From positions 62,001 to 126,000 of the forward strand of contig NZ_JAGGKD010000003.1 in assembly GCF_017873415.1 (NCBI RefSeq): DNA of 64,000 nt. Direction: 5' to 3'. Both the position numbers and the translations under genes were made by a program. This document shows, one piece after another, positions 22,086 through 39,038 of this stretch. How positions within the stretch are numbered: position 1 is the stretch's first letter; each line of letters begins with the position of its first letter. Source of the DNA: Methanolobus bombayensis (GTDB taxonomy: Archaea > Halobacteriota > Methanosarcinia > Methanosarcinales > Methanosarcinaceae). Under the pieces are notes generated by a model, which had not been told where the DNA came from, made no database searches, and saw only the letters and a program-made list of their open reading frames with translations.

Positions 22086-22835
22086 TCAGATACTTATCTT
22101 CCTGAAAAGATGAGAACCAATGATAATCATCAGAATTGTAAAACCTGATAAAACTCCTAAACTAACAACAGGATCAACCTGAGAAGTTCCAAGTAAACCA
22201 TATCTGATGCCTTCTACACCATATGTCAGTGGATCCAGTAATGTAAGTGATCTTATCCATACAGGCAAGCTGTCTATAGGAAAGAGAGCTCCTGAAAGAC
22301 CGAATATAGGGAAGATCACAAAGTTCATTATAAGCTGGAAGCCATGCATATCCTCCATTCTTGAAGCAATGGCGATGCCGAATGCTGTGAATGAAAGTCC
22401 TATAAGAGTCATGAAAATTATAGCAATGACAAAACCCGGTATGTTGTTGATCTGAAGTCCCATGAATAATGAAAGAACAAGAATGATAAGTCCCTGGATC
22501 ACTGCGGTTGTAGCTCCCCCTACAGTCTGGCCAAACATAATCTCAACCCTTGATACCGGAGCTACCAATGTTTCTTTCAGGAAGCCGAACTGCTTATCCC
22601 AGATGATCTGAATACCTGCGAAAACAGATGTGAATAAAACACTCATTGAAATGATCCCAGGCATAATGAAACCAATATATCCCTGCTCCATTCCCGGCAT
22701 AACAACCACTGAATTGAGACCGAAACCAAGAACTGCAAAAAGAAATAAAGGCATGCCAAGACTGCCTACCAGCCTGCTTTTGGAACGAAGGTAACGCTTT
22801 ACACTCCTGAGCCATATGGTGTAAACTATATCCAT
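22086..22835 (-). CDS. ABC-2 type transporter permease
   Basis: A 249-residue membrane protein with six predicted helices, including FLFAVLGFGLNSVVV, AVIQGLIILVLSLFMG and the conserved IFPIFGLSGALFPIDSLPVWI loop. This is the permease of a daunorubicin/CcmA-type exporter. The start ATG follows GGAGGAGATAAA, part of which overlaps the stop of the ATPase gene, so translation is coupled. It would pair with the ATPase encoded immediately upstream. The exported substrate is unknown; a TetR regulator in the same operon suggests a drug, lipid or metabolite. Confidence 0.93.
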   Translation of the reverse strand: MDIVYTIWLRSVKRYLRSKSRLVGSLGMPLFLFAVLGFGLNSVVVMPGMEQGYIGFIMPGIISMSVLFTSVFAGIQIIWDKQFGFLKETLVAPVSRVEIMFGQTVGGATTAVIQGLIILVLSLFMGLQINNIPGFVIAIIFMTLIGLSFTAFGIAIASRMEDMHGFQLIMNFVIFPIFGLSGALFPIDSLPVWIRSLTLLDPLTYGVEGIRYGLLGTSQVDPVVSLGVLSGFTILMIIIGSHLFRKISI

Positions 22836-22836
22836 T

Positions 22837-23823
22837 TTATCTCCTCCTTACTTTTCGCATCATTCTCATCTTATCCTTGGCACTTGCTTCCTCTTCCCTG
22901 ATAGTTCTACCTGTGAAATGCAGGAACACATCTTCAAGGGTTGGTTTATGTATTGAGAGAGATTTAATCCCAATATTATTTTCAGACGCAATGTTGACTA
23001 TGCGTGCAACATGTTGTTCAGCATTCTGGATACTGATGGTTATCAAAGAATCATGAAGTTCGACACTCTTAATTTCCGGCAGAGTTTTTAGTGCAGAATA
23101 GAAAACATCCCTTTGGGAAGAATCTATAGTTATCACATCTCCCCCAATGTCATTCTTTAGATTCTCTGAGCTGTCCATAGCTATAATTTTACCTTTATCG
23201 ATTATGGCGATACGATGACATAGCTTGTCAGCTTCTTCCATATAATGAGTTGTCAGGATTATGGTGATACCTTTTTCCTTGTTCAGTTTTTCTATGTAAT
23301 CCCACAAGTGGTTTCTTGTCTGTGGATCAAGACCAAGAGTAGGTTCATCCAGGAAAAGTATCTGAGGTTCATGAAGAAGACCTCTTGCGATCTCAAGACG
23401 GCGACGCATTCCACCGGAATATGTTTTCACCTGATTATCTTTTTTATCATATAATTCCACAAGTTTCAACAGGTGGGCAATCTTCTTTTGTCTGGTACTT
23501 TTTGGAATACGATAAAGTCGTCCATGAAAATCCATATTCTCATAAGCTGTCAATTCTTCGTCAAGACTTTGATCCTGAAAAACTATACCTATGGATTTTC
23601 TGACATTATCCTGATCCTTTGAAATGTCAAAACCATTAACAAAAGCCTTTCCGGAAGTGGAAGGGAGCATGGTTGAAAGCATGGAGATCGTAGTTGTCTT
23701 GCCTGCACCATTCGGACCAAGAAGGCCGAATACTTCACCTTTTTTAATACGGAAGGTCAGATCATTTACAGCAGTAAAATCACCGAACTTCCGTACCAGA
23801 TTCTCAACTTCAATTGCATACAT
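22837..23823 (-). CDS. ABC exporter ATP-binding protein (DrrA/CcmA-like)
   Basis: A 328-residue cytoplasmic ATPase. Walker A is GPNGAGKTTT near residue 37; the Q-loop is in GIVFQDQSLDEEL; the signature is TYSGGMRRRLEIARGLL; Walker B is ILFLDEPTLGLD. The C-terminal 90-residue extension is typical of DrrA-type exporters. Start ATG 23823 is preferred because GGTGT precedes it; GTG 23838 would add five residues. It is translationally coupled to the TetR gene, whose stop codon lies five to seven bases upstream, and to the permease downstream. Confidence 0.94.
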   Translation of the reverse strand: MYAIEVENLVRKFGDFTAVNDLTFRIKKGEVFGLLGPNGAGKTTTISMLSTMLPSTSGKAFVNGFDISKDQDNVRKSIGIVFQDQSLDEELTAYENMDFHGRLYRIPKSTRQKKIAHLLKLVELYDKKDNQVKTYSGGMRRRLEIARGLLHEPQILFLDEPTLGLDPQTRNHLWDYIEKLNKEKGITIILTTHYMEEADKLCHRIAIIDKGKIIAMDSSENLKNDIGGDVITIDSSQRDVFYSALKTLPEIKSVELHDSLITISIQNAEQHVARIVNIASENNIGIKSLSIHKPTLEDVFLHFTGRTIREEEASAKDKMRMMRKVRRR

Positions 23824-23827
23824 TTTT

Positions 23828-24439
23828 TCATACACCAATGCCTTCGAATATAATCGCGATTTTTGCTGACATGTCCTTTGAAAATGAATAATCCTTTTCT
23901 GAATGTAACCAGATCATAAGAGAATGGAAATAAACTGCATAGAGTATTTCTGCTACTACTTTCGAGTCGGCATCTGATCTGATCTCTCCTTTGTGCATAC
24001 CTTCTCTGACAAAATCAGCCAGCATGTTTATAAAGAATTCATGTTTCTTTCTTTTGTCCGAATGGCAGGATTTTTCATGTCCTGTGGTCAGCAGGAGCTT
24101 TTTTTGTTCAAAAAATAAAAGTCTCAGAAGTTCCCTTTCCTTTTCATAATGTTCAGCCACCTGAACCAGGAAGTTTTCTATCTTTTGCCTTGAAGAAATA
24201 CCAAGGGAAATTTGGTCATTCATGATAGTTCTAATGAACTCTTCTTTCTGCTCTCTGAAATAATATAAAAGTGATTCCTTGGTTGGAAAATAATTGAAAA
24301 ACGTACCTTTGGCAATTCCAGCTTCCTTTGTAATCTCATCCACCGTTGTGTTCTCGAATCCTTTTTCCCTGAACATACGACTTGATATTTCAAAGATCCT
24401 GCATCTGGTTTCTTTTTTCTTTTGTTCACGCAGAGACAT
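23828..24439 (-). CDS. TetR/AcrR-family repressor
   Basis: A 203-residue regulator. Residues 10-55 form the TetR helix-turn-helix (RCRIFEISSRMFREKGFENTTVDEITKEAGIAKGTFFNYFPTKESLL). The rest is a helical ligand-binding domain. First gene of a TetR-ATPase-permease operon and divergent from the AhpD-like gene. A 28-base dyad 29-56 bases upstream is the likely operator. The start ATG follows GAGGT. Family members release DNA when a small hydrophobic ligand, often the exporter's substrate, binds. Confidence 0.94.
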   Translation of the reverse strand: MSLREQKKKETRCRIFEISSRMFREKGFENTTVDEITKEAGIAKGTFFNYFPTKESLLYYFREQKEEFIRTIMNDQISLGISSRQKIENFLVQVAEHYEKERELLRLLFFEQKKLLLTTGHEKSCHSDKRKKHEFFINMLADFVREGMHKGEIRSDADSKVVAEILYAVYFHSLMIWLHSEKDYSFSKDMSAKIAIIFEGIGV

Positions 24440-27997: not shown

Positions 27998-28384
27998 TCA
28001 GAAAGCCTCATCAAAAACAGGCACATATGGTTTTATATCAATTACTGGTGTATTATCAATAGCATCAAGACCCTTTACTTCTAACTCTCTTCCTCTTTTT
28101 TCAATTAATTCTACTATAGTGACACCAATAGGATTAGGTCTCCCAGGTGTTCTTGAAGCAAATACTCCTTTTAAACCTCCAACCCTTCTCTCTGCTATCA
28201 GTTCATAACCTTTTGATTTGTCAAAGTAGAAAAGCACCTGAAGATGGGTACTATCTTCTATTTTATAGAGTCCTCCTTCAAATTCTTCATTAACAACAAT
28301 AACACTGTTTGCTTTACGCATCTCTTCGGGTATAGCAGGCTCACTGAATGAGCTTTTTACCATTCCTATACTTTTAAATTCCAT
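27998..28384 (-). CDS. TrmO/TsaA-like (UPF0066) SAM-binding protein
   Basis: A 128-residue beta-rich protein. Family motifs are visible: FKSIGMVKSSF at the N-terminus, THLQVLFYFDKS, the signature GVFASRTPGRPNPIGVTIVEL, and GLDAIDNTPVIDIKPYVP. Members such as TrmO use S-adenosylmethionine to N6-methylate t6A37 in tRNA. Full length for the single-domain archaeal type. It lies about 20 bases after the ATPase gene of an import operon on the same strand, so it may be co-transcribed and could have a role linked to the imported compound rather than tRNA. Confidence 0.88.
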   Translation of the reverse strand: MEFKSIGMVKSSFSEPAIPEEMRKANSVIVVNEEFEGGLYKIEDSTHLQVLFYFDKSKGYELIAERRVGGLKGVFASRTPGRPNPIGVTIVELIEKRGRELEVKGLDAIDNTPVIDIKPYVPVFDEAF

Positions 28385-28403
28385 TATTATTCACCTTTTG
28401 ATA

Positions 28404-29171
28404 TCATTTACAAGCAATTTTTTTTGGCATTATCCATATCTGGTCAGAATCACGTTTAACGTCGACACTAACCCCATAAACAGGTTCAATATTTTCTGGC
28501 GTCAGAATATCAGTCCCACCTCCATGGAATATTTCCCCGTCTTTCATCATAAGTATCTTATCGCTATATCTTGCTGCAAGGTTAAGATCATGTACTGACA
28601 TCACAACAGTAACATCATTGTTAGCCTGCTCCCTTGTAATTTCAAGAACTTCCAGCTGATGTTTAAGATCAAGACTACTGGTAGGTTCATCAAGCAATAG
28701 TATCCTTGGCTGTTGAGCAAGTGCCCTTGCAATTATTACTTTCTGCCTCTGTCCTCCACTTAGTTCATTTATGTTCTTCATTGAGAAACTGCTCAGGTCC
28801 ATCATGTCTATGACATCTGACACTATTTCCAGATCCTTTGAACTGGGAATCCATTTCATATGAGGTTTCCTTCCCATTAAGACGGTATCAAAAACAGATG
28901 TTGGAAATGCTCCTCTTTCAGCCTGGGGAATGTACCCAACAAGTTTTGCAATATCTTCTCTGTGTAGTTTATTCAGGTCATATTTATCGATAAGAATTGA
29001 TCCTTGCTTAGGGGTCAATATTTTATTCATACATTTGAGAAATGTAGTCTTTCCCGAACCATTTGGTCCTATTATTGAAAGAAACTCCCCTTTGCCAACC
29101 TTTAGATTCATGTTCTTCAATGTCGGTTTTCCATTGTAACTGAATTCAAGTCCTTCTATGTTTATTTTCAC
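28404..29171 (-). CDS. ABC import ATPase (FecE/BtuD-like)
   Basis: A 255-residue cytoplasmic ATPase. Walker A is GPNGSGKTTFLKCMN near residue 34; the Q-loop is in GYIPQAERG; the signature is LSGGQRQKVIIARAL; Walker B is ILLLDEPTSSLD; the switch His is in MSVHDLNLAARYSD. These fit the iron-chelate/cobalamin importer family. Start is GTG at 29171, overlapping the permease stop codon (GTGA), so translation is coupled. It is closely similar to the ATPase at 37413-38165. Confidence 0.95.
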   Translation of the reverse strand: MKINIEGLEFSYNGKPTLKNMNLKVGKGEFLSIIGPNGSGKTTFLKCMNKILTPKQGSILIDKYDLNKLHREDIAKLVGYIPQAERGAFPTSVFDTVLMGRKPHMKWIPSSKDLEIVSDVIDMMDLSSFSMKNINELSGGQRQKVIIARALAQQPRILLLDEPTSSLDLKHQLEVLEITREQANNDVTVVMSVHDLNLAARYSDKILMMKDGEIFHGGGTDILTPENIEPVYGVSVDVKRDSDQIWIMPKKIACK

Positions 29172-30229
29172 CAGTATTCCCTCCCCTTGATAATCAAGTA
29201 TATGAACAGCGGAGCACCCAGGAAAGATGTTATTATACCAACCGGCAACACCTGTGGAGAAATAATATTCCTTGCTACGGTATCTGATGCAAGCAAAAGT
29301 AAACTACCCATAAGGCATGAGACCGGAAGCAAAAGCATTTCATTTCCACCTATCATCTTACGAACCATATGTGGCACAACAAGTCCCACAAATCCTATTA
29401 TCCCTACTAAAGAAACTATCAGAGCAGACACAAAAGATGCTCCTATCATGGCTCTGATCCTTAGTTTATCAACATCCACTCCAAGACTTTTAGCTGTATC
29501 ATCTCCAGAATTTAAAGCATTATAGTTCCAGCTGTTATATGCGAACCATATGGAAACTGGAATCACAAATAACGATATGATTCCGAGTTCGTTCCATGTG
29601 GTCTTACTTACATCTCCGAACTGCCAGAAGATAACAGAAGCAATTTGAGTATCTTCGGCAAAATACTGTATTGCACTGGTGCCGGCAGTGAATAGTGAAC
29701 CAAGTGCAATTCCCGCAAGTATCATAATCTCGGGTGTTGCTTTCTTGAGTTTTGCAAGTGCCAGGATAACAGCTGTGGAGAATAGTGAACAGGTAAAGGC
29801 TGAAAGACTGGTGATATAAGGATTATCAAGAACAACGGCTCCGGTACTGTATGTGGTTCCGGTTCCCAGTAAAACAATAGAACAGGATGCACCGAAGGCA
29901 GCTGCATGTGATATTCCTAATGTGAAAGGTGATGCAAGTGGGTTTTTAAGTACACTCTGCATCGCAGCTCCGGATATAGCAAGACCTGCACCTGCAACAA
30001 CAGCAGTAAGTACCTGTGGAAGCCTGATATTCCATATTATATTGTAGGCAGTACCACTTACTATCTGACCTGTGAATACAGAGTACATCTCTGTATAGGT
30101 CAGTTTTACAGGTCCGTTCAATATGGCATAAATTGTAAGGAGAGTCAACAATGTTACCGCTGACAATCCGAACAACAATTTCTGTCCTATATCTTTCCTG
30201 TATTCATCCAGAACCTGATTTTGGAACAT
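29168..30229 (-). CDS. FecCD/BtuC-family permease
   Basis: A 353-residue integral membrane subunit with about ten helices. Signatures: RLPQVLTAVVAGAGLAISGAAMQSVLKNPLASPFTLGISHAAAFGA and the C-terminal GIIGFVGLVVPHMVRKMIGG, followed by LPVGIITSFLGAPLFIYLI. This is the translocation channel of an iron-chelate, haem or corrinoid importer. ATG 30229 follows GAGGG by six bases; TTG 30235 would add two residues. Middle gene of a binding protein-permease-ATPase operon, and paralogous to 36346-37416. Confidence 0.95.
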   Translation of the reverse strand: MFQNQVLDEYRKDIGQKLLFGLSAVTLLTLLTIYAILNGPVKLTYTEMYSVFTGQIVSGTAYNIIWNIRLPQVLTAVVAGAGLAISGAAMQSVLKNPLASPFTLGISHAAAFGASCSIVLLGTGTTYSTGAVVLDNPYITSLSAFTCSLFSTAVILALAKLKKATPEIMILAGIALGSLFTAGTSAIQYFAEDTQIASVIFWQFGDVSKTTWNELGIISLFVIPVSIWFAYNSWNYNALNSGDDTAKSLGVDVDKLRIRAMIGASFVSALIVSLVGIIGFVGLVVPHMVRKMIGGNEMLLLPVSCLMGSLLLLASDTVARNIISPQVLPVGIITSFLGAPLFIYLIIKGREYW

Positions 30230-30238
30230 TTTCAACCC

Positions 30239-31384
30239 TCAGAATGAAAGTTGTCTGGCGCCGCCTCCTAATTCTTCTTTTACTTTATCATATACCGGAA
30301 CTCCGAAGAACATTTCATATATCTCATCTGCCTTTTCATCTATATCCACATCCTCAAACTGTTCAGGGTAAAGTACAGTCCCCATGTAGTATGAGTTTAT
30401 GAGTACGCTTCCATAATTGCGCATGTATGCTGAAACAGGCAGGAATCCGTGAACATTTTCATCTTCAAAAGCCTTAATCTCTTTGTATGAAGGGTTTCTT
30501 TCCACATCAGAATTGACAAGATCAAGGTTTGAAAGGTCAACAAATATTACATCAGGATTCCATGAGAAAAGATTTTCCTGACTAACTGAGAATGCATGCG
30601 AAGTAATGGCATCCTCTTCAACTCCCCCCTCATCAAGTGCATGTCTGGCATTTATGAAATCAAAGGATGCAAATGGATATTGAGTAGACAGAATTCCATG
30701 CCCTCCCCTATGGGAAAGACCACCAGGGAAGGCAATTGGTTTCTCTTCTTCAGATATATTTTCTGTTCTTGCGTTCAAATCTGCTATCAATTGTTCAGTA
30801 TATTCCTGCAATTCATTTGCTCTATCTGTTTTTCCCAAGACTTTTCCATATATCTGCCAGGTCTCATACAGGACCTCCCTGTCCCCATCAGCTAAGTCCC
30901 CTCCATCCATGTATATTACAGGGATACCTGTTTTAGTTTGATAATCCTCTGCATCAGAAACATCGCCGCCACTATTTCCAAAAAAGATAACATCCGGCTC
31001 TGCACCAGCGATCAGTTCAGGGTCACCTCCATGACCAGGACCTACTTCCGACAGATCAGACATTTCATCGAAGTAAACCAATCTGTATACTGCAGTGATA
31101 GTAGCGCTATCGTCTTTTTCACTTGATTCCACCCCAACTACCATATCCATTGCATCCAGATATGCTATCTGTCTGAGTGTACCAGCACCAACAGCAACAA
31201 TTCTTTCCACGTTTGCAGGAACTTCAACTGTCCTTCCAGCCATATCTGTGATTTGCACAGTTTCCACTTCTTCTTCATATGTTTGAAGGCTTTGTGAGGT
31301 AGAAGAACTATCCGTGCAGCCCGATACAAAGGCTGAAATAGCGACTAAAGCTAAAACAAAAATTATTGTTGTATTCTTTTTCAT
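30239..31384 (-). CDS. substrate-binding lipoprotein (BtuF/FecB-like)
   Basis: A 381-residue extracytoplasmic binding protein. Signal peptide with lipobox-like FVSGC, Cys23 as probable anchor, then a Ser/Thr/Glu-rich tether. The PF01497-type fold begins at VQITDMAGRTVEVPANVERIVAVGAG. The cleft probably binds a metal chelate or corrinoid; ligand unknown. ATG 31384 is chosen because GGAGA lies six bases before it, whereas it abuts ATG 31390. First gene of the operon. The N-terminal half is clearly paralogous to 35147-36319 (both contain TSQS-QT after the lipobox). Confidence 0.94.
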   Translation of the reverse strand: MKKNTTIIFVLALVAISAFVSGCTDSSSTSQSLQTYEEEVETVQITDMAGRTVEVPANVERIVAVGAGTLRQIAYLDAMDMVVGVESSEKDDSATITAVYRLVYFDEMSDLSEVGPGHGGDPELIAGAEPDVIFFGNSGGDVSDAEDYQTKTGIPVIYMDGGDLADGDREVLYETWQIYGKVLGKTDRANELQEYTEQLIADLNARTENISEEEKPIAFPGGLSHRGGHGILSTQYPFASFDFINARHALDEGGVEEDAITSHAFSVSQENLFSWNPDVIFVDLSNLDLVNSDVERNPSYKEIKAFEDENVHGFLPVSAYMRNYGSVLINSYYMGTVLYPEQFEDVDIDEKADEIYEMFFGVPVYDKVKEELGGGARQLSF

Positions 31385-31420
31385 TATCATTCTCCAAAAT
31401 TATAACTAATACCCATTATG

Positions 31421-31447
31421 AAATAGAATATATATGTGTTTCTATTT
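31421..31447. promoter_or_regulatory. 8-bp dyad upstream of import operon 1
   Basis: AAATAGAA (31421-31428) and TTCTATTT (31440-31447) are exact inverted copies separated by an AT-rich 11-base spacer containing ATATATAT. It overlaps the likely TATA region of the minus-strand operon. A second dyad, ATAAAAC/GTTTTAT, lies at 31502-31523. Confidence 0.35.
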
Positions 31448-31624
31448 ACTAATATCTAATTTTTTAATAGCAATTGATATATACTAGAATGCTAAGCTTA
31501 AATAAAACAATTAGATGTTTTATCTTTTTGTATAACATTATTTCAAAAATAAATCCAGGTTTGTATTTACATTTACAGTGCGATTAATATTGCAAAGAAC
31601 GACCGTTATTTAAAAAGAGGTATT

Positions 31625-32611
31625 ATGAAAGCTATTGAAGTTAACAATTTAAGCAAATTATACCCTCCAAATATCAGAGCTGTGGATGATATCACATTCT
31701 CTATTGATCTGGGTGAAATATTTGGCCTTCTTGGACCTAATGGAGCAGGCAAAACCACAACATTAAAAGCCATCACAACTCTGGGAAAACCAAGCTCAGG
31801 CACAATTAAAGCTTTTGATATAGATATCATTGAGTCACCACAGAAAGCCCGACAGATGTTCGGATACGTACCCCAGGCAGTTTCTGCTGATGGGGATCTT
31901 ACAGGTTATGAGAACCTTCTCATATTTGCCAAATTATTCTACGTGAACAAGAATGAACGTGAAAAAAGGATTAACAATGCCCTTAAGTATATGGGTCTTT
32001 CAGACAGAAGTCAGGACCTTGTAAAACATTATTCCGGCGGTATGATGAGACGGCTTGAGATCGCACAGGCCCTGGTAAACAGACCTAAAGTGCTTTTTCT
32101 TGATGAGCCAAGCATAGGACTGGATCCTTCTTCCAAAAGGCAGGTCTGGGAATACATTAAAAAACTGAATGAAGAATTTGGAATGACTATAGTCATTACA
32201 ACCCATGATATGCTCGAAGCTGATGAGCTCTGCCACAGAATAGCTATAATGAATTCAGGGAAGATTGCAGTGATAGACACTCCCCACCTATTAAAAAAAT
32301 CCATTGGGGGAGATATTGTATCTCTTAGCTTACAGGAAAGTGGTTTGAAATTATCAATTCCAGATGAACTGGGTTTGCTAATCGGCAATGATGATGACCG
32401 TGTATTAATCTCTACAGACAATGCTGAAATTGCAATTCCCCAGATAATAAGGCATTTTGAAAATAATGGAAGTGTAGTCCGATCTGTAACCGTTAACAAA
32501 CTTACATTGGATGATGTTTTTATGAAATATGCAAGATCAAGCCTCCAGTCTCAAGGTACCATAAAGGATAATCGCTCCGTACGCAGGAGCTTTGCGAGGC
32601 GCGGAAGATGA
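31625..32611 (+). CDS. ABC exporter ATP-binding protein (DrrA-like)
   Basis: A 328-residue ATPase. Walker A is GPNGAGKTTT near residue 39; the Q-loop is in GYVPQAVSADGDL; the signature is HYSGGMMRRLEIAQAL; Walker B is VLFLDEPSIGLD. A C-terminal domain of the DrrA type (ITRHFENNG-like to SVRRSFARRGR) follows. The start ATG follows GAGGT. It overlaps the permease start by ATGA, a translationally coupled pair. It lies between two import operons and may export a compound, for example a chelator, that those systems retrieve (inference). Confidence 0.94.
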   Translation: MKAIEVNNLSKLYPPNIRAVDDITFSIDLGEIFGLLGPNGAGKTTTLKAITTLGKPSSGTIKAFDIDIIESPQKARQMFGYVPQAVSADGDLTGYENLLIFAKLFYVNKNEREKRINNALKYMGLSDRSQDLVKHYSGGMMRRLEIAQALVNRPKVLFLDEPSIGLDPSSKRQVWEYIKKLNEEFGMTIVITTHDMLEADELCHRIAIMNSGKIAVIDTPHLLKKSIGGDIVSLSLQESGLKLSIPDELGLLIGNDDDRVLISTDNAEIAIPQIIRHFENNGSVVRSVTVNKLTLDDVFMKYARSSLQSQGTIKDNRSVRRSFARRGR

Positions 32612-33390
32612 GTAGAATTAACGAGTTCTATAACTTTGGATATAGTGCTCTGTCAATAGTTGAAATGGAAGTAAGGAAGATTCGCCACGATTCAACTGAG
32701 CTCTGGACAAGAGGTGTACAACCTGCATTATGGCTCCTTCTTTTTGGTGAGGTTTTTAACAGGGTTCGTGACCTTTCAATTCCGGGTTATGATTATATCC
32801 AGTTCCTTACTCCGGGTGTGCTTGCACAATCAGTTCTCTTCATTGCAATATTCTATGGAATAACCCTAGTATGGGAAAGGGATGTGGGTTTATTGACAAA
32901 ATTGCTTTCTACACCATCACCCCGTTCTTCAATAGTAGTCGGAAAAGCACTGGCTGCAGGTGTAAGGGGAGTGTTCCAGTCATTAATGGTCTTTACGCTG
33001 GCAGTTTTCATGGGAGTTAATTTGCGTCACAACCTGTTGAATGTAGCAGGTGTTTTTGTAGTGATAATCCTGCTTGCAATGTGTTTCTCAAGTTTCTCAA
33101 TGTGTCTTGCATCAATGTTGAAAACCAGGGAAAAGATGATGGGGATCGGTCAGATGATAACTATGCCCCTGTTCTTTGGTAGTAACGCCATCTATCCTAT
33201 AACTCTGATGCCTCCATGGCTTCAATCTTTATCAAAATTAAATCCTTTGACATATGTTGTTGATGCACTCAGAGCCTTGCTGCTTACAGGAGATTACTCC
33301 ACTATTCCAGAAGATATAGCATTTCTGTCTTTGATTACTTTAGTTCTCGTAATCCTTGCTTCGTTTTCTATTAGCAGGTTGCTTGAATAG
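32608..33390 (+). CDS. ABC-2 type exporter permease (DrrB-like)
   Basis: A 260-residue membrane protein with six helices. Family motifs: ELWTRGVQPALWLLLFGEVFNRV at the first helix, the LTPGVLAQSVLFIAIFYGITLVWERDVGLLTKLLSTPSPR stretch in the core, and PLFFGSNAIYPITLMPPWLQSLSKLNPLTYVVDALR near the C-terminus. The start codon overlaps the ATPase stop. Acts with the ATPase upstream; substrate unknown. Confidence 0.94.
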   Translation: MSRINEFYNFGYSALSIVEMEVRKIRHDSTELWTRGVQPALWLLLFGEVFNRVRDLSIPGYDYIQFLTPGVLAQSVLFIAIFYGITLVWERDVGLLTKLLSTPSPRSSIVVGKALAAGVRGVFQSLMVFTLAVFMGVNLRHNLLNVAGVFVVIILLAMCFSSFSMCLASMLKTREKMMGIGQMITMPLFFGSNAIYPITLMPPWLQSLSKLNPLTYVVDALRALLLTGDYSTIPEDIAFLSLITLVLVILASFSISRLLE

Positions 33391-33449
33391 TTACAAGTTT
33401 CATCTTTTTATTATATTAAAAAATCAAAAAACAAAAAAGAATGTAAAAA

Positions 33450-33474
33450 CAGGTTAGAAATTATACCTAACCTG
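33450..33474. terminator. bidirectional terminator
   Basis: CAGGTTAG (33450-33457) and CTAACCTG (33467-33474) form an exact 8-bp stem. T-rich tracts follow on both strands (CAATTTCTATTTCTTTTTT on plus; the complement of the A-run at 33420-33449 on minus). It separates the convergent exporter and surface-protein genes. Confidence 0.7.
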
Positions 33475-33491
33475 CAATTTCTATTTCTTTT

Positions 33492-34802
33492 TTACTGACG
33501 TTTGAACAGAAGCAAAGCGCCGACCAACCCGAAAATTCCCATAGTCATTTCAAATCCTGGTGTACTGACTGAACTTTCAACTTCAGGAACATCTTCTTCC
33601 ATATCAACCTCAACATTTTCTTTATCCTCAGTACTTGCTGCTGATTCTGACTCCACTGCTACCTCTTCCTCAACTTCTTCTCCACCCATATCAACTACAA
33701 CAACTTCTTCTTCAGCAGACTCTGTTTTTGAAGTTGTACCTTTACTTTTCACAGTACAAGTCTTCCTGAGTGTCATTTTAAGACATGGTGCATCAGTATC
33801 TTCAGTTTTAAGGTAAAGTCCACCATGAAGATCTATTTGTTTATCCCCGCTCAAAGTTACAGCCTTGTTACTGGAAAGAACAACTGCATCATCACCTGTA
33901 TGGAGAACAGTACCTCCTTTACTACCAGCATAATCAATTCCATTCATAAGAGCCGGTACTTCAAAGCTTTCAACATCGAAAATGCCATATGTTGCATCAC
34001 TTTCAATGGTGGTAATGTCACCACGGAGGAACGCATATTTGAATACCGCAAAGTCAGAGTCAGTACCTCTGAAAATTGATTCTACACTGCAATAGAATAC
34101 TGGATTATCATCACTGTCTTTATAGAGATAAGTCCTTTCCATATTGGTCATATTTGCAGATGAACTGATAACTCCGCTATCAATTTCCTCACCATTCTTC
34201 TTCAGGTGTACCCAGACCTTTTCACCTTCAACATCTATCTGGTCAACAACAAGTGTCCATCCACCCGCAAGTTCCCATTCTTCTCCAGAGAACATCTGTT
34301 TCTTGTCGTCACTGTCGAACTGCAACATGATCTTGGCAATTTTGTCAGGCTTACAGCCCTGAGAAGGAGCTGAATTATCTTCAGGCATGACTAAATAACC
34401 TGGTCCAAAGAAACCCATTTGATAAATGAATTCGAGATCAACGTCATCAACAATAAAAGTGCCACCGTCATCTGAGCTTGCTATCTTTGACTTTTTCTTC
34501 TGTGGTTTGCATACATAGTAGAGGTCGCCTTCTTCAATTGTGTCACCAAGCTGAATTCTCTCAGAAGAGTTTACACTATTGTGAAGATAAAGAAGTTCAC
34601 TTGAAAGACCAGGTTTTATTGGATACCAGAAGCCTGAAAAGGTATTTGCATCCCAATAAAAGTCACCTGCTGCTATTGAAGAATCTGAACTGTCATATAC
34701 AGTGCTTCGAATCGTGTAAGTCGGATCATCAGCGCTAACTGGCACAATGAGCATTGCTACTAGAACTGATAATATACCCATGATTTTTACAATTTTTTTC
34801 AC
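33492..34802 (-). CDS. surface-layer-type protein (DUF1608 domain) with PGF-CTERM anchor
   Basis: A 436-residue exported protein with signal peptide 1-24 (IMGILSVLVAMLIVPVSA). A single S-layer duplication-type domain of Methanosarcinales runs from about 28 to 340 (TIRSTVYD ... GDFYWDANTFSGFWYPI ... LYYVCKP ... GFFGPGYLVMPED). A Ser/Glu/Val-rich linker of about 60 residues follows. The C-terminus STPGFEMTMGIFGLVGALLLFKRQ has a PGF motif, a membrane helix and a basic end, a target for archaeosortase processing. Main S-layer proteins of the family carry two such domains, so this is a shorter relative. Its position between import operons suggests a surface binding role (inference). Confidence 0.88.
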   Translation of the reverse strand: MKKIVKIMGILSVLVAMLIVPVSADDPTYTIRSTVYDSSDSSIAAGDFYWDANTFSGFWYPIKPGLSSELLYLHNSVNSSERIQLGDTIEEGDLYYVCKPQKKKSKIASSDDGGTFIVDDVDLEFIYQMGFFGPGYLVMPEDNSAPSQGCKPDKIAKIMLQFDSDDKKQMFSGEEWELAGGWTLVVDQIDVEGEKVWVHLKKNGEEIDSGVISSSANMTNMERTYLYKDSDDNPVFYCSVESIFRGTDSDFAVFKYAFLRGDITTIESDATYGIFDVESFEVPALMNGIDYAGSKGGTVLHTGDDAVVLSSNKAVTLSGDKQIDLHGGLYLKTEDTDAPCLKMTLRKTCTVKSKGTTSKTESAEEEVVVVDMGGEEVEEEVAVESESAASTEDKENVEVDMEEDVPEVESSVSTPGFEMTMGIFGLVGALLLFKRQ

Positions 34803-35146
34803 ATCAATATCTCCGAAAAGAAAATCATAGACAGAACCCCATCCTATTTTGAATATGATTACAGGTAACCTGAAATAAAACTGATATTAGGTTTATTTCA
34901 GTGAGCCAACTGTTTTCTGATTTTCTTATTTTCAATAAAATAAGAGACAATTCTTGAAAACCAACATTTTTATCATTAAATGTTATGTTTGTTACTTTTT
35001 AAATCTCTTAAGTTACAATAAGCTTATCATCTGTTAGTATTATGGCATAAATAAATTTTGTTTTTATTTTTTTATATTCAGAAAAGCAAAACATTTATAG
35101 TTCCTTTGCATACCACATTTGACGTTCATTATTTCGGAGAACCAAA
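34803..35146. other. divergent promoter region between surface protein and import operon 2
   Basis: About 340 AT-rich bases without a gene. It holds a compound dyad at 34862-34900 near the surface-protein end, and a TATA-like ACATTTATAG near 35090, about 55 bases before the binding-protein start. Confidence 0.5.
34862..34900. promoter_or_regulatory. compound dyad, possible operator
   Basis: CAGGTAACCTG (34862-34872) is a perfect palindrome. It overlaps TGAAATAAA (34871-34879), whose exact inverse TTTATTTCA lies at 34892-34900. The pair sits 60-100 bases upstream of the surface-protein gene and could control either divergent unit. Confidence 0.4.
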
Positions 35147-36319
35147 ATGAAAGGAAAAAAGAGTCAATTTATGATTTTTTTGTTTGTGTTATCAGTGCTC
35201 TCGGTTCTGATATCAGGATGTACTGACACATCTACATCGCAAAGTATACAGACACAAGAAGAAGTGACAACCGTTACCATTACAGATGCTCTTGGCAGAG
35301 AAGTAGAAATTTCTGAAAACACAGAGCATGTTATCTGTTCAGGAGCCGGTGCACTCAGGCTTCTTACCTACCTTGAGGCACAGGACATGATAGTGGGCAT
35401 TGAAAGAGGGGAAACAAAGAGTACAGCCTCAAATGCAAAACCATATTCACTTGCAAACCCACAGTTTGCCACTGATTATGAAGTGTTCGGTGAAACCAGG
35501 GGACAGGATGACCCTGAAAAAATACTCGCACTTGACCCACTCCCAGATGTAATAATCAAGACAAACTCCGCAGTTGGCTATGACCCTGCAGAACTTCAGG
35601 AAAAGACAGGAATTCCTGTTGTTGTAATCAACACAGGAGATCTTGCTGAAAACAGAGAAGATCTTGACGCAAGTTTCAGAATAATTGGACAGGTCGTTGG
35701 CAAGGAAGAGCGTGCTGAAGAAGTAATTTCATTCTTTGATGAAGCACTGGACGATCTGAACTCACGCACAGAAGATATTGCTGAGGAAGATAAGCCAACA
35801 TGTTACGTCGGTGGAATCGGACGTGCCGGAGGACCACAAGGTTTCCAGTCAACTGAACCAACATACCCACCGTTCCTGTTCACAAATGCACTCAATGTTG
35901 CTTATGGTGACATGGACATAAATGTTGCAGATGTTTCCAAGGAAAAGATAATCGAGTGGGATCCTGACTACCTGTTCCTTGACCTGAATACAATCGAATG
36001 TGGCGATGATAGAAGTGGACTTAGCCTGCTTCAGAATGATGATTCATATGCCCTGCTTTCAGCAGTACAGAATGGAAATGTGTATGGAGTACTGCCATTC
36101 AACAAGTATGCAACCAACTTTGGTTCAGTTCTGGCAGACTCATATTTCGCAGGCCAGACACTTTATCCTGACAGGTTTGAGGATGTTGATCTTGAAAGCA
36201 AGACAATAGAAATATACACATTCCTTGTTTGCCAGGGTGACGAAGAGCGGGGAAGAGAGTTATATGAGTCCATGATCGGTACCTACGGCGTTCCTGCATT
36301 CACCAAACTGGACATATAA
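35147..36319 (+). CDS. substrate-binding lipoprotein (BtuF/FecB-like), paralogue
   Basis: A 390-residue extracytoplasmic binding protein. Signal peptide with lipobox-like LISGC (Cys25), a Ser/Thr/Gln tether, then VTITDALGREVEISENTEHVICSGAGALRLLTYLEA, matching the companion at 30239-31384. A distinctive GGIGRAGGPQGFQSTEPTYPPFLFTNALN stretch lies in the second lobe. The start ATG follows CGGAGAACCAAA. First gene of a plus-strand operon with permease, ATPase and methyltransferase. Ligand unknown: iron chelate, corrinoid or another metal complex. Confidence 0.94.
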   Translation: MKGKKSQFMIFLFVLSVLSVLISGCTDTSTSQSIQTQEEVTTVTITDALGREVEISENTEHVICSGAGALRLLTYLEAQDMIVGIERGETKSTASNAKPYSLANPQFATDYEVFGETRGQDDPEKILALDPLPDVIIKTNSAVGYDPAELQEKTGIPVVVINTGDLAENREDLDASFRIIGQVVGKEERAEEVISFFDEALDDLNSRTEDIAEEDKPTCYVGGIGRAGGPQGFQSTEPTYPPFLFTNALNVAYGDMDINVADVSKEKIIEWDPDYLFLDLNTIECGDDRSGLSLLQNDDSYALLSAVQNGNVYGVLPFNKYATNFGSVLADSYFAGQTLYPDRFEDVDLESKTIEIYTFLVCQGDEERGRELYESMIGTYGVPAFTKLDI

Positions 36320-36345
36320 AACAGAATAAAAAACCGGTGAAAGGA

Positions 36346-37416
36346 ATGGACACTATACAGGGTGACATTGCCCGTCGTTACAAAGAGCACACCTGCAGGA
36401 AAATTACCTATATCCTGTCCGGAGTTGCTTTCTTATTTTTAGTGCTTATAATGTCGATCTCATTGGGTCCAGTGGACATCCCCCCTCTTGAAGTCATACG
36501 GACACTTGCAGGAGAGAGTATTTCAATACGCTGGGACAGCATCATCTGGGATATACGTCTTCCCCAGGTGCTAACCGCCATTGTAGCGGGTGCCGGACTA
36601 TCCGTAGCCGGCGTTGTGATGCAGTCTATTCTCAGAAATCCATTGGGATCACCTTTCACACTCGGGATATCAAATGCTGCAGCCTTTGGTGCAGCTGTTT
36701 CGGTTATGGTGCTTGGAACAGGTGCAACACACACTAATGTTGGCAGCGCTGTAACCATTAGCAACCCTTACATCACTACAATTGTAGCATTTGCATTTTC
36801 CCTTTTAGTGACTGTGATTATCCTTGCGTTTTCCCGGTTTAGAGGAGTTACACCTGAAGTTATGATATTAGTAGGTGTTGCAATGGGCTCACTTTTCACA
36901 GCAGGAACCATGATGTTGCAGTATTTTGCTGATGATACACAGCTTGCATCAATAGTATTCTGGACATTTGGTGATGTTTCAAGAGCAAGTTGGAGTGAGT
37001 TGGCCCTAATAACCGCAGTTGTAGTTTTATCAATAATCTATTTCACCATCAATCGATGGAAATACAATGCTATAGATGCTGGAGATGAAACTGCTAAGGG
37101 ACTTGGTGTTAATGTTGAACAGGTAAGAATGAGGGGAATGACGTGTGCTTCCCTTGTAACTGCCATAATTGTTGCTTTCCTTGGTGTCATTGGTTTTGTG
37201 GGTCTTATATGTCCGCATATGGCCCGCAGGATAGTAGGAGATGATCATCGTTTTCTGATAGTAGGAAGTGTTGTGATAGGTTCATTGCTCCTGCTCAGCG
37301 CTGATACTGCTGCAAGGATGATGATTGAGCCTTACCAGTTACCAGTTGCGGTGCTGACTTCCTTTTTTGGTGCACCTACGTTTATATACCTTATTTTAGG
37401 AGCGAGAAGAATATGA
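36346..37416 (+). CDS. FecCD/BtuC-family permease, paralogue
   Basis: A 356-residue permease with about ten helices. Signatures: RLPQVLTAIVAGAGLSVAGVVMQSILRNPLGSPFTLGISNAAAFGA and GVIGFVGLICPHMARRIVGDDHRF, then LPVAVLTSFFGAPTFIYLIL. ATG 36346 is preferred, with GGTGA at 36336-36340; the in-frame GTG at 36337 lies inside this site. Its stop overlaps the ATPase start by ATGA. Closely similar to 29168-30229. Confidence 0.95.
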   Translation: MDTIQGDIARRYKEHTCRKITYILSGVAFLFLVLIMSISLGPVDIPPLEVIRTLAGESISIRWDSIIWDIRLPQVLTAIVAGAGLSVAGVVMQSILRNPLGSPFTLGISNAAAFGAAVSVMVLGTGATHTNVGSAVTISNPYITTIVAFAFSLLVTVIILAFSRFRGVTPEVMILVGVAMGSLFTAGTMMLQYFADDTQLASIVFWTFGDVSRASWSELALITAVVVLSIIYFTINRWKYNAIDAGDETAKGLGVNVEQVRMRGMTCASLVTAIIVAFLGVIGFVGLICPHMARRIVGDDHRFLIVGSVVIGSLLLLSADTAARMMIEPYQLPVAVLTSFFGAPTFIYLILGARRI

Positions 37417-38165
37417 TACTTGAAGTGGACGGAGTGGAATTCCAATATAAGAGTAAGGAAGTATTGAAAGAGATTAAATTCGAGCTGAAAAGGAATGAGA
37501 TTCTCTCAATACTCGGACCAAATGGTGTGGGAAAGACCACACTTCTCAAATGCATGAACGCAATTCTCAAACCAAAAAGAGGAACTGTACTCATAGAAGA
37601 TGAAGACGTTCTCAAACTTGAACAGATCGAGATTGCAAGAAGACTTGGTTATGTACCACAACGCTGTGAGCCTGCAAGACTTACAGCCTTTGACGCTATC
37701 CTGCTTGGAAGAATGCCACACATCAAATGGAACATTACAACCGAGGATGTAATGATAGTTGAAGATACAATCAAGAAACTAAACCTTGATGAAATGGCAT
37801 TAAGATACATAGATGAACTTAGCGGAGGCGAACTCCAGAAAGTTGGAATTGCCAGGGCAATAGCACAAAATCCTAAACTGCTACTTCTTGACGAACCTAC
37901 AAGCAGCCTTGACCTGAAGAACCAGCTTGAGATTCTTGATACTGTAAAAGAAGTTGTCAAAAAAGAGAATGTTTCTGCCATCATGACAATGCATGACCTG
38001 AACCTTGCTTTCAGGTATTCTGATAAGTTCCTGTTCCTGAAGAACGGAACAATATTTGCAGCAGGAAGGATAGAAGATGTAACATCCGACACCATCAGGG
38101 AAGTATACGGAGTACCTGTGACAATACAGAATTATCAGGAAGTTTCAGTCGTTATACCGGTATAA
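37413..38165 (+). CDS. ABC import ATPase (FecE/BtuD-like), paralogue
   Basis: A 250-residue ATPase. Walker A is GPNGVGKTTLLKCMN near residue 34; the signature is LSGGELQKVGIARAI; Walker B is LLLLDEPTSSLD; the switch His is in MTMHDLNLAFRYSD. The C-terminal EVYGVPVTIQNYQEVSVVIP matches EPVYGVSVDVKRDSD of its paralogue. Translationally coupled to the permease. Completes a BtuFCD-like importer with the two genes before it. Confidence 0.95.
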   Translation: MILEVDGVEFQYKSKEVLKEIKFELKRNEILSILGPNGVGKTTLLKCMNAILKPKRGTVLIEDEDVLKLEQIEIARRLGYVPQRCEPARLTAFDAILLGRMPHIKWNITTEDVMIVEDTIKKLNLDEMALRYIDELSGGELQKVGIARAIAQNPKLLLLDEPTSSLDLKNQLEILDTVKEVVKKENVSAIMTMHDLNLAFRYSDKFLFLKNGTIFAAGRIEDVTSDTIREVYGVPVTIQNYQEVSVVIPV

Positions 38166-38186
38166 AACATGTGGAGGAGGATAATT

Positions 38187-39038
38187 ATGGATTTGAACTA
38201 TCGGAATATAGACTGGGGAAGTGTATGGACTGACCAAATGAACAAGCATCTGGATAGTGGTAACAAGAAAGAATGTGCTTCCGTTTGGGAAGAAAAGGAA
38301 AGTGCAAAACGTTTCTGGGAGATGTCGCTCAGAGATGAACAGAAAAGAGCACGTGACGTCATCAGTAAATTATACATAAGTCCTGAATCCAGAGTGCTTG
38401 ATATTGGTGCAGGTCCGGGTTCCCTTGCCATACCAATTTCTGAGAAGGTAAAACACGTAACTGCTGTTGAACCTTCTAAGGGTATGATAGAGGTCTTTGA
38501 GGATAACATTGCTGAATATAAATGTGACAACATTTCCCTTATCAAGAAAAGATGGGAGGATATTGATGTTGAAAAGGATCTCGATGGAAATTATGATGTT
38601 GTTATAGCATCCTTTTCTCTGGGAATGCCAGACATCCGTAAAGCAATAGAGGACATGCTGGCAGTAGCTTCAGGAAGAATCTACCTCTACTGGTTTGCAG
38701 GAATAAATTCCCGGGATGAACATTTTATGGAGCTCTGGCCACGTCTACATGGAACTGAATCTTATTCCAAACCTCATTCTGATATACTGTATAGTGTACT
38801 CTACCAAATGGGAATTCATCCGAATATGGAGGTATTTACATTTGAGAGAAGCGAAATCTACGAGAGTTTAGAGGAAGCGGTCGATAAGCTTTCAGATAAT
38901 TTTTCACTGGAAAATGATCATCAAAGAACTATTCTGGAAGAATATCTGGAAGAGAATCTTAAAAAAGAGAACGGTAGTTATATTTATGACGCTTCTACCA
39001 GACGTGTAAGAATCTGGTGGGATACACAGAATAACTGA
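38187..39038 (+). CDS. class I SAM-dependent methyltransferase
   Basis: A 283-residue cytoplasmic enzyme. The SAM motif I is VLDIGAGPGSLAIPI near residue 72; motif II acid is in VTAVEPSKGMIEVF; YDVVIASFSLGMPDIRKAIEDM corresponds to motif IV. The N-terminal 60 residues (NYRNIDWGSVWTDQMNKHL) are specific to a group I associate with methanogen metal-transport loci, without certain function. ATG 38187 follows GGAGGA; ATG 38169 is unlikely. It lies 21 bases after the importer ATPase and is almost surely in its operon, so the substrate may be the imported molecule (inference). Confidence 0.9.
   Translation: MDLNYRNIDWGSVWTDQMNKHLDSGNKKECASVWEEKESAKRFWEMSLRDEQKRARDVISKLYISPESRVLDIGAGPGSLAIPISEKVKHVTAVEPSKGMIEVFEDNIAEYKCDNISLIKKRWEDIDVEKDLDGNYDVVIASFSLGMPDIRKAIEDMLAVASGRIYLYWFAGINSRDEHFMELWPRLHGTESYSKPHSDILYSVLYQMGIHPNMEVFTFERSEIYESLEEAVDKLSDNFSLENDHQRTILEEYLEENLKKENGSYIYDASTRRVRIWWDTQNN

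Follow-up and report, generated by a model that had tools for sequence, protein, structure and literature searches.

TrmO and a class I methyltransferase replace each other in BtuFCD-type importer operons of Methanolobus

In anaerobes, the radical SAM enzymes ChuW and HutW carry out heme breakdown that depends on S-adenosylmethionine (SAM, or AdoMet) after uptake. The staphylopine (Cnt) locus, CntKLM-ABCDF-E, includes the nicotianamine-synthase-like CntL, which performs an aminocarboxypropyl transfer in staphylopine synthesis. We take NiuBDE of Helicobacter pylori to belong to the binding-protein/FecCD (FecBCD-like) importer class. NiuBDE is a proven nickel importer of the ATP-binding cassette (ABC) type (PMC5140060). 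Bacterial members of the TrmO (YaeB) family are tRNA methyltransferases; Kimura et al. (2014) noted that archaeal YaeB lacks the C-terminal DPRxxY domain, needed for tRNA methylation in E. coli, that no archaeal tRNA has ever been found to contain N6-methyl-N6-threonylcarbamoyladenosine (m6t6A), and that the substrate of archaeal TrmO is unknown, so that these proteins may not be tRNA m6t6A enzymes (PMC4132733). Here we describe a stretch of 64,000 nucleotides of Methanolobus bombayensis (contig NZ_JAGGKD010000003.1, positions 62,001 to 126,000; here denoted the window), in which one BtuFCD-type importer operon (operon 1) ends in a TrmO-like gene, trmO1, and a paralogous one (operon 2) ends in a class I methyltransferase gene, MT2.

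The strongest result is an exchange between TrmO and the class I methyltransferase inside metal-importer operons, which lay outside the view of an earlier, sequence-only reading of this DNA. Operon 2 often occupies one chromosomal site, with a shikimate kinase-like gene and then DUF711 downstream, and at this site MT2 follows the ATPase in most relatives. In genome G049 MT2 is followed by TrmO (79% to TrmO1), and in G046 and G043 TrmO (80% and 79% to TrmO1) replaces MT2 and adjoins the shikimate kinase-like gene. Because one syntenic site has MT2 only, MT2 plus TrmO or TrmO only among relatives, the two folds, though unrelated, replace one another at a fixed position, in a series from original through both to replaced. 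In a permease tree the permeases of G049, G046 and G043 lie inside the operon-2 clade, the grouping of these three being weakly supported. TrmO-bearing operon 1 makes up a separate clade that also includes two genomes from a different genus, and the permease PERM1 clusters with the operon-1 permeases of G061, G071 and G073.

All eleven open reading frames of the block, 27998..39038, were found where the sequence-only reading had placed them. Families are from Pfam and NCBIfam profile searches, and coordinates are positions in the window:

27998..28384, minus strand: TrmO1, single-domain TrmO_N class VIII SAM methyltransferase-like protein, terminal gene of operon 1 (PF01980 4.8e-30; TIGR00104 above cut-off)
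28404..29171, minus strand: ATP1, BtuD/FecE-type ATPase, operon 1 (PF00005)
29168..30235, minus strand: PERM1, BtuC/FecCD permease, operon 1 (PF01032 1e-89)
30239..31390, minus strand: SBP1, Peripla_BP_2 lipoprotein, operon 1 (PF01497 3.4e-18; best solved relative 2etv, 2.3e-66)
31625..32611, plus strand: ABC2A, DrrA-like exporter ATPase (PF00005 and DrrA1-3_C; TIGR01188 304.9 bits, cut-off 312.45)
32608..33390, plus strand: ABC2M, DrrB-like ABC-2 permease (PF01061 4.8e-38)
33492..34802, minus strand: PGF-CTERM-anchored surface protein with an S-layer domain, in divergent orientation to operon 2 (PF07752 2.9e-41, PF18204)
35147..36319, plus strand: SBP2, Peripla_BP_2 lipoprotein, operon 2 (PF01497 2.3e-21; 2etv 9.6e-67)
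36337..37416, plus strand: PERM2, BtuC/FecCD permease, operon 2 (PF01032 1.6e-89)
37413..38165, plus strand: ATP2, BtuD/FecE-type ATPase, operon 2 (PF00005 1.3e-31)
38169..39038, plus strand: MT2, class I SAM methyltransferase, terminal gene of operon 2 (Methyltransf_25 2.8e-12)

Both operons are complete BtuFCD-type sets (Peripla_BP_2 protein, FecCD permease, ABC ATPase) with overlapping or close-packed genes, in the order SBP1, PERM1, ATP1, TrmO1 on the minus strand and SBP2, PERM2, ATP2, MT2 on the plus strand. Their permeases are 52% identical, their ATPases 48% and their lipoproteins about 37%; the terminal genes are unrelated. Between them lie the DrrAB-like ABC-2 exporter and the S-layer/PGF-CTERM gene. 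Profiles and identities thus bear out the layout first proposed, of paralogous BtuFCD-type operons around an exporter and a PGF-CTERM protein with two different SAM enzymes in terminal position. All matches of the importer proteins to substrate-specific NCBIfam equivalogs fell below cut-off; the best models for ATP1 were heme, corrinoid and F420-0 ATPases, each below its own cut-off. A second ABC-2 exporter pair, about 30% identical to ABC2A/ABC2M, was noticed at window 22086-24439 (ATPase 22837-23838, permease 22086-22835), where it adjoins a TetR-like regulator.

To examine whether SAM enzymes stay beside such importers, we inspected the genes around 68 BtuC-type permeases, drawn from a search of 27 Methanolobus genomes and from two members of a different genus. 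The same-strand operon includes a SAM methyltransferase for 49 of the 68. Permeases counted as operon-1/2-type if they shared 50% identity or more with PERM1 or PERM2; 32 did, one of them cut by a contig end, and the operons of 27 of the 31 assessable ones end in MT2 (20), TrmO (6) or both (1). Loci L131 and L136, which the script scored as 'none', are counted as MT2-bearing on reading of the loci. Of the remaining four, two are additional copies lying upstream of a complete operon, and the other two, in G063, have no SAM enzyme. In a control with identical flanks, a methyltransferase lies within 1.5 kb at 17 of 27 FecCD loci of the genus versus none of 29 ABC-3 (Znu-type) permease loci, and this control, together with operon conservation, led us to reject fully random neighbours. 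The genome carrying the window (3.12 Mb) has four full-length FecCD loci, all with a methyltransferase in the operon: the two of the window, an operon-2 copy on contig C1 (L040) whose MT2 is 72% identical, and the C4 cluster (L054) described below; a fifth, weak FecCD match is an ABC-3 permease. The link between importer and SAM enzyme is real in Methanolobus and relatives: the sequence-only reading had allowed that the enzymes might not be kept beside the importers, and the neighbourhood comparison finds them there across genera. The literature searched contains no account of TrmO or MT2 accompanying BtuFCD or Nik importers.

Two other kinds of Methanolobus BtuFCD operon were noticed. One (L117, L119, L144-L146; G061, G042, G060, G059, G044) ends in a nitrogenase-like NifH-NifD-like fusion of 739 amino acids (PF00142 and PF00148), possibly for reductive processing of the imported complex, and further genes. 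The other (L127, L130, L133-L135, L137, L140) has two binding proteins, a Methyltransf_11 protein (205 aa), a radical SAM protein (590 aa), a permease and an ATPase, in this order.

A second importer family carries the same two kinds of enzyme. In Methanolobus and Methanococcoides a class I methyltransferase is encoded between NikA and NikB (L054, L163, L164, L229), and in Methanothrix TrmO is encoded there (L200, L205, L217, L223, L227). Several of these Methanothrix loci lie near CooC, a flavin reductase-like gene, MT4 and a heavy-metal P-type ATPase, the last two named by reading the sequences. A survey of TrmO neighbours in 393 genomes of the phylum showed that f6 genomes also have the order NikA-TrmO-NikB; one more genus has NikA-CooC-TrmO, and in family f9 TrmO accompanies a binding protein and FecCD. 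In one f9 case, G290 (L272:5394-6569), a TrmO-FmdE fusion stands directly upstream of a Peripla_BP_2 lipoprotein and a FecCD permease; the fusion was already noted as a Pfam architecture in 2010 (PMC2954224). BtuFCD-linked and Nik-linked TrmO form separate clades in a TrmO tree, and TrmO was therefore recruited at least twice.

Because two unrelated folds share a position in two unrelated importer types, the methyltransferases appear to act on the imported cargo. We tentatively read the operons as importers of a chelated metal or metal-tetrapyrrole-like compound, most likely of nickel, whose cytosolic methyltransferase would alter the ligand after import so that the metal is released or trapped. 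The observations behind this reading are the gene content, the conservation of the operons, the in-place enzyme replacement and the recurrence in Nik importers with CooC, FmdE or NikR neighbours. The PGF-CTERM surface protein and the binding lipoprotein would capture the metal complex, the BtuC/BtuD pair would import it, and the SAM-dependent enzyme would methylate the ligand in the cytosol; methylation of donor atoms would then release or trap the metal, and the nickel would be destined for carbon monoxide dehydrogenase/acetyl-CoA synthase (CODH/ACS) and other nickel enzymes. MT2 (class I) and TrmO1 (class VIII) would do the same job and displace each other, and the DrrAB-like exporter may dispose of or recycle the ligand. 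The earlier suggestion that the SAM enzymes could modify the ligand is strengthened by the swap; its methylation chemistry, like the metal, the ligand and the exporter cargo, we infer. That archaea use a methylate-to-release mode of metal acquisition, in which a class I or class VIII (TrmO) enzyme methylates an imported nickel chelate in the cell, is a wider claim that we regard as doubtful. If it were true, importer-linked archaeal TrmO would be a metal-uptake enzyme rather than a tRNA enzyme. Some archaea hold several copies of single-domain TrmO, whose substrate question dates from 2014, and the swap of two folds at one position in two importer families offers a concrete, testable substrate class.

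TrmO1 had been described as a TrmO-like protein. It does have the TrmO_N domain; it is not a full TrmO, being a single class VIII SAM-binding beta-barrel domain of 128 amino acids from which the C-terminal DPRxxY domain is absent. In the numbering of AF0241, residues R82, D111 and K122 (E. coli R92, D125 and K136) are retained in TrmO1 and in 7/7 importer-linked TrmO, giving TrmO1 three of four AdoMet residues, both critical ones among them; the fourth contact, Q22 (E. coli Q25), is not Gln. The missing DPRxxY domain matches what Kimura et al. (2014) reported for archaeal YaeB; TrmO1 should not be filed as a tRNA methyltransferase despite its TIGR00104 match above cut-off. G063 (L128:18016-18519) has a third TrmO subfamily member, its C-terminus rich in His (HHQHHTH), which stands behind an S-layer gene divergent from an operon-2 copy without MT2.

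These data bear on the alternative that the methyltransferases target tRNA, the importer or a regulator and share with the importers only a metal-responsive co-expression. That the bacterial family methylates tRNA favours such a target, as do the three places where MT2 occurs without an importer and the MT4 relatives that adjoin an acetate permease in other genera; yet archaeal TrmO is without the C-terminal domain that presumably binds tRNA, m6t6A was not found in archaeal tRNA (PMC4132733), and the two folds alternate in the same operon slot in two importer families. We consider this alternative quite improbable.

MT2 itself is a class I methyltransferase of 289 aa with an intact SAM motif, VLDIGAGPG, and an AlphaFold model with a predicted local distance difference test (pLDDT) score of 90.7. 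Its family is conserved in Methanosarcinales, anaerobic methanotrophic archaea (ANME) and Desulfobacteraceae. A Foldseek search with the model returned the small-molecule methyltransferases YcgJ, histamine methyltransferase, trans-aconitate methyltransferase and TmtA/GtmA at template modelling (TM) scores of about 0.5-0.6, and we rejected assigning the substrate from structure, these matches being too generic. Against the CpaM model NF043040 MT2 scores 52.2 bits, below the 180-bit cut-off. In Desulfoluna/Desulfobacteraceae metagenome-assembled genomes (L228, L232) MT2-family genes adjoin BtuFCD genes, in the order FecCD-ATPase-methyltransferase-binding protein in L228; the association of importer and methyltransferase therefore occurs in Bacteria too.

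The evidence for nickel comes from paralogous systems and from TrmO at other loci. In the genome of the window, the C4 cluster (L054) encodes MT4, a relative of MT2, with a CooC-like ATPase, a 201-aa PGF-CTERM-like protein, a binding protein, a permease and an ATPase, followed by a NikA-methyltransferase-NikB-NikC-NikDE operon whose methyltransferase, MTnik, is a third class I family. The CooC homologue of this MT4-BtuFCD module matches the solved CooC 3kje (1.9e-19) and has a CxC motif. At L278:5309-5989 an FmdE with a histidine-rich N-terminus (MHDHDHHHDSKGDHDHGHHHH) is followed by TrmO and then by a convergent gene that we named NikR-like by reading its sequence. The FmdE structure shows a mixed Zn/Ni site, the protein having been purified on nickel resin (PMC2954224). 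Elsewhere in this genome and in relatives, the MT4, MTnik and TrmO systems are linked to CooC, NikR or a Nik importer; the window has no such link. Because of CooC, the Nik importers, the NikR-like gene beside a His-rich FmdE and the Zn/Ni structure of FmdE, the imported metal is probably nickel. NiuBDE, as classed above, is an example of nickel transport by this broad kind of importer. M. barkeri has lower levels of its iron(III)-dicitrate-type and nickel-type binding proteins on Fe(II)/cysteine than on sulfide or pyrite (PMC10846266), a pattern that fits metal scarcity under sulfide, for genes that are not shown to be those of the window. In g5 and g13 (g13 probably Methanosarcina; L170, L178-L180) MT4-family methyltransferases adjoin an acetate permease resembling AceP (PF01184), which may tie them to Ni-CODH and aceticlastic growth.

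The same CooC, Nik and NikR neighbours count against corrinoid or tetrapyrrole salvage, in which the operons would import cobamides or related tetrapyrroles and the methyltransferase would methylate a corrinoid or a corrinoid protein. We know of no corrinoid link for TrmO, and beside the methyltransferases we saw neither CbiZ nor any gene for a corrinoid protein or B12 processing. Salvage would suit the heavy corrinoid demand of methylotrophic methanogens and the radical SAM or nitrogenase-like enzymes of the sister operons, and the closest models are BtuC for the permeases and CpaM (corrinoid protein-associated) for the methyltransferase, all below cut-off. We hold it to be rather unlikely.

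The exporter varies more than the importers do. ABC2M has few close orthologues, in G059 (90%), G062 (broken) and G061 (a fragment), with one partial copy in G054. Outside the locus, the exporter has close orthologues (82-90%) only in the gene pair that ends the NikA-MTnik-NikB-NikC-NikDE operons in G059, where the pair is intact, and G062, where the permease is broken. In the nearest relative, G061 (L035:17288-18313), a deletion fuses SBP1 residues 148-383 with ABC2M 150-260 and PERM1, ATP1 and TrmO1 are intact; the ancestor therefore had the SBP1/exporter junction as in the window. The exporter therefore belongs to the surroundings of these systems, yet it is not always with them: most conserved operons, including the Nik operon of the window's own genome, have none. 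About 14 relatives keep the S-layer-domain gene in divergent orientation to SBP2 and others have lost it, and MT4 modules have a small PGF-CTERM protein instead of or alongside it. The idea of a single system hence stands in part, in favour of a connected uptake system: SAM enzymes are kept with importers, the S-layer gene in about 14 relatives and the exporter in Nik-methyltransferase operons of two relatives, but the exporter is not kept at the locus. We rejected a fixed 11-gene system, since the gene set varies in make-up and arrangement and usually lacks the exporter.

The exporter in the NikA-methyltransferase operons of G059 and G062 raises the alternative of metallophore production, in which the SAM enzyme helps build a small chelator, perhaps through transfer of a methyl or aminocarboxypropyl group, the DrrAB-like exporter secretes it and the importers retake it when loaded. 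ABC-2 pairs also precede binding protein-methyltransferase-BtuFCD sets in Methanothrix (L205, L235), and a NikA-like protein matches the CntA model, far below cut-off. On the other side stand the many conserved operons without an exporter and the absence of any match of MT2 to a CntL or nicotianamine synthase (NAS) family. Racemase, opine dehydrogenase, nonribosomal peptide synthetase (NRPS) and NRPS-independent siderophore (NIS) synthetase genes were not recognised in the neighbourhoods examined; the window block and the proteins scanned around its paralogues likewise gave no recognisable CntL-type enzyme or opine dehydrogenase. The secreted chelator of the sequence-only reading is therefore unproven, chelator biosynthesis genes not having been recognised, and we judge metallophore production unlikely.

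Several results weigh against methylation of an imported nickel chelate. MT2 stands without its importer in G060, in G062 and at a single site of G042, and an operon-2-type copy in G063 has no SAM enzyme. The structural matches of MT2 are generic class I folds, and 2etv, the best solved relative of SBP1 and SBP2, carries a putative iron(III)-binding annotation. The window has no CooC, NikR or Nik gene, so nickel rests on paralogous systems and on TrmO elsewhere. In a phylum-wide sample, neighbours of the kinds described above for importer-linked TrmO were found at 8 of 20 TrmO regions versus 1 of 20 shifted controls; TrmO is thus not always an importer partner, and we rejected the notion that all archaeal TrmO are. 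Rfam had no riboswitch match, tRNAs being the only matches, and simple dyad and 8-mer counts gave no shared dyad upstream of the operon 1, operon 2, MT4 and NikA genes. Separately, a conserved element, TTACAATAA-N(10-12)-TGTTAGYATTA, was seen upstream of SBP2 (about window 34990-35060) and in the same place in L035 and L128; it is a possible regulator site of operon 2 in close relatives, and by eye was not found before other operons.

Compared with described systems, the favoured reading resembles ChuW/HutW in how it would work, a cytosolic SAM-dependent change of an imported metal complex freeing the metal, although the enzymes are not homologous and heme is without support here. The staphylopine/Cnt locus likewise joins a Nik/Opp-type importer, a SAM-using enzyme and an exporter; the window differs in having BtuFCD-type importers, an ABC-2 exporter and MT2/TrmO rather than CntL, with no histidine racemase or opine dehydrogenase. 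NiuBDE is similarly a binding protein with an ABC importer, imports nickel (also cobalt and bismuth) and was horizontally transferred (PMC5140060), but no methyltransferase, surface protein or exporter is reported with it. The CooC homologue of the MT4-BtuFCD module shares the CxC motif of the CooC-type nickel ATPase of CODH maturation (3kje), yet it is encoded with an importer and a methyltransferase rather than with CODH, and is absent from the window. Finally, TrmO1 shares with TrmO/YaeB, the class VIII tRNA m6t6A37 methyltransferase, the N-terminal beta-barrel SAM domain and R82/D111/K122, whereas it lacks the C-terminal DPRxxY domain, has Q22 changed and is encoded within an importer operon.

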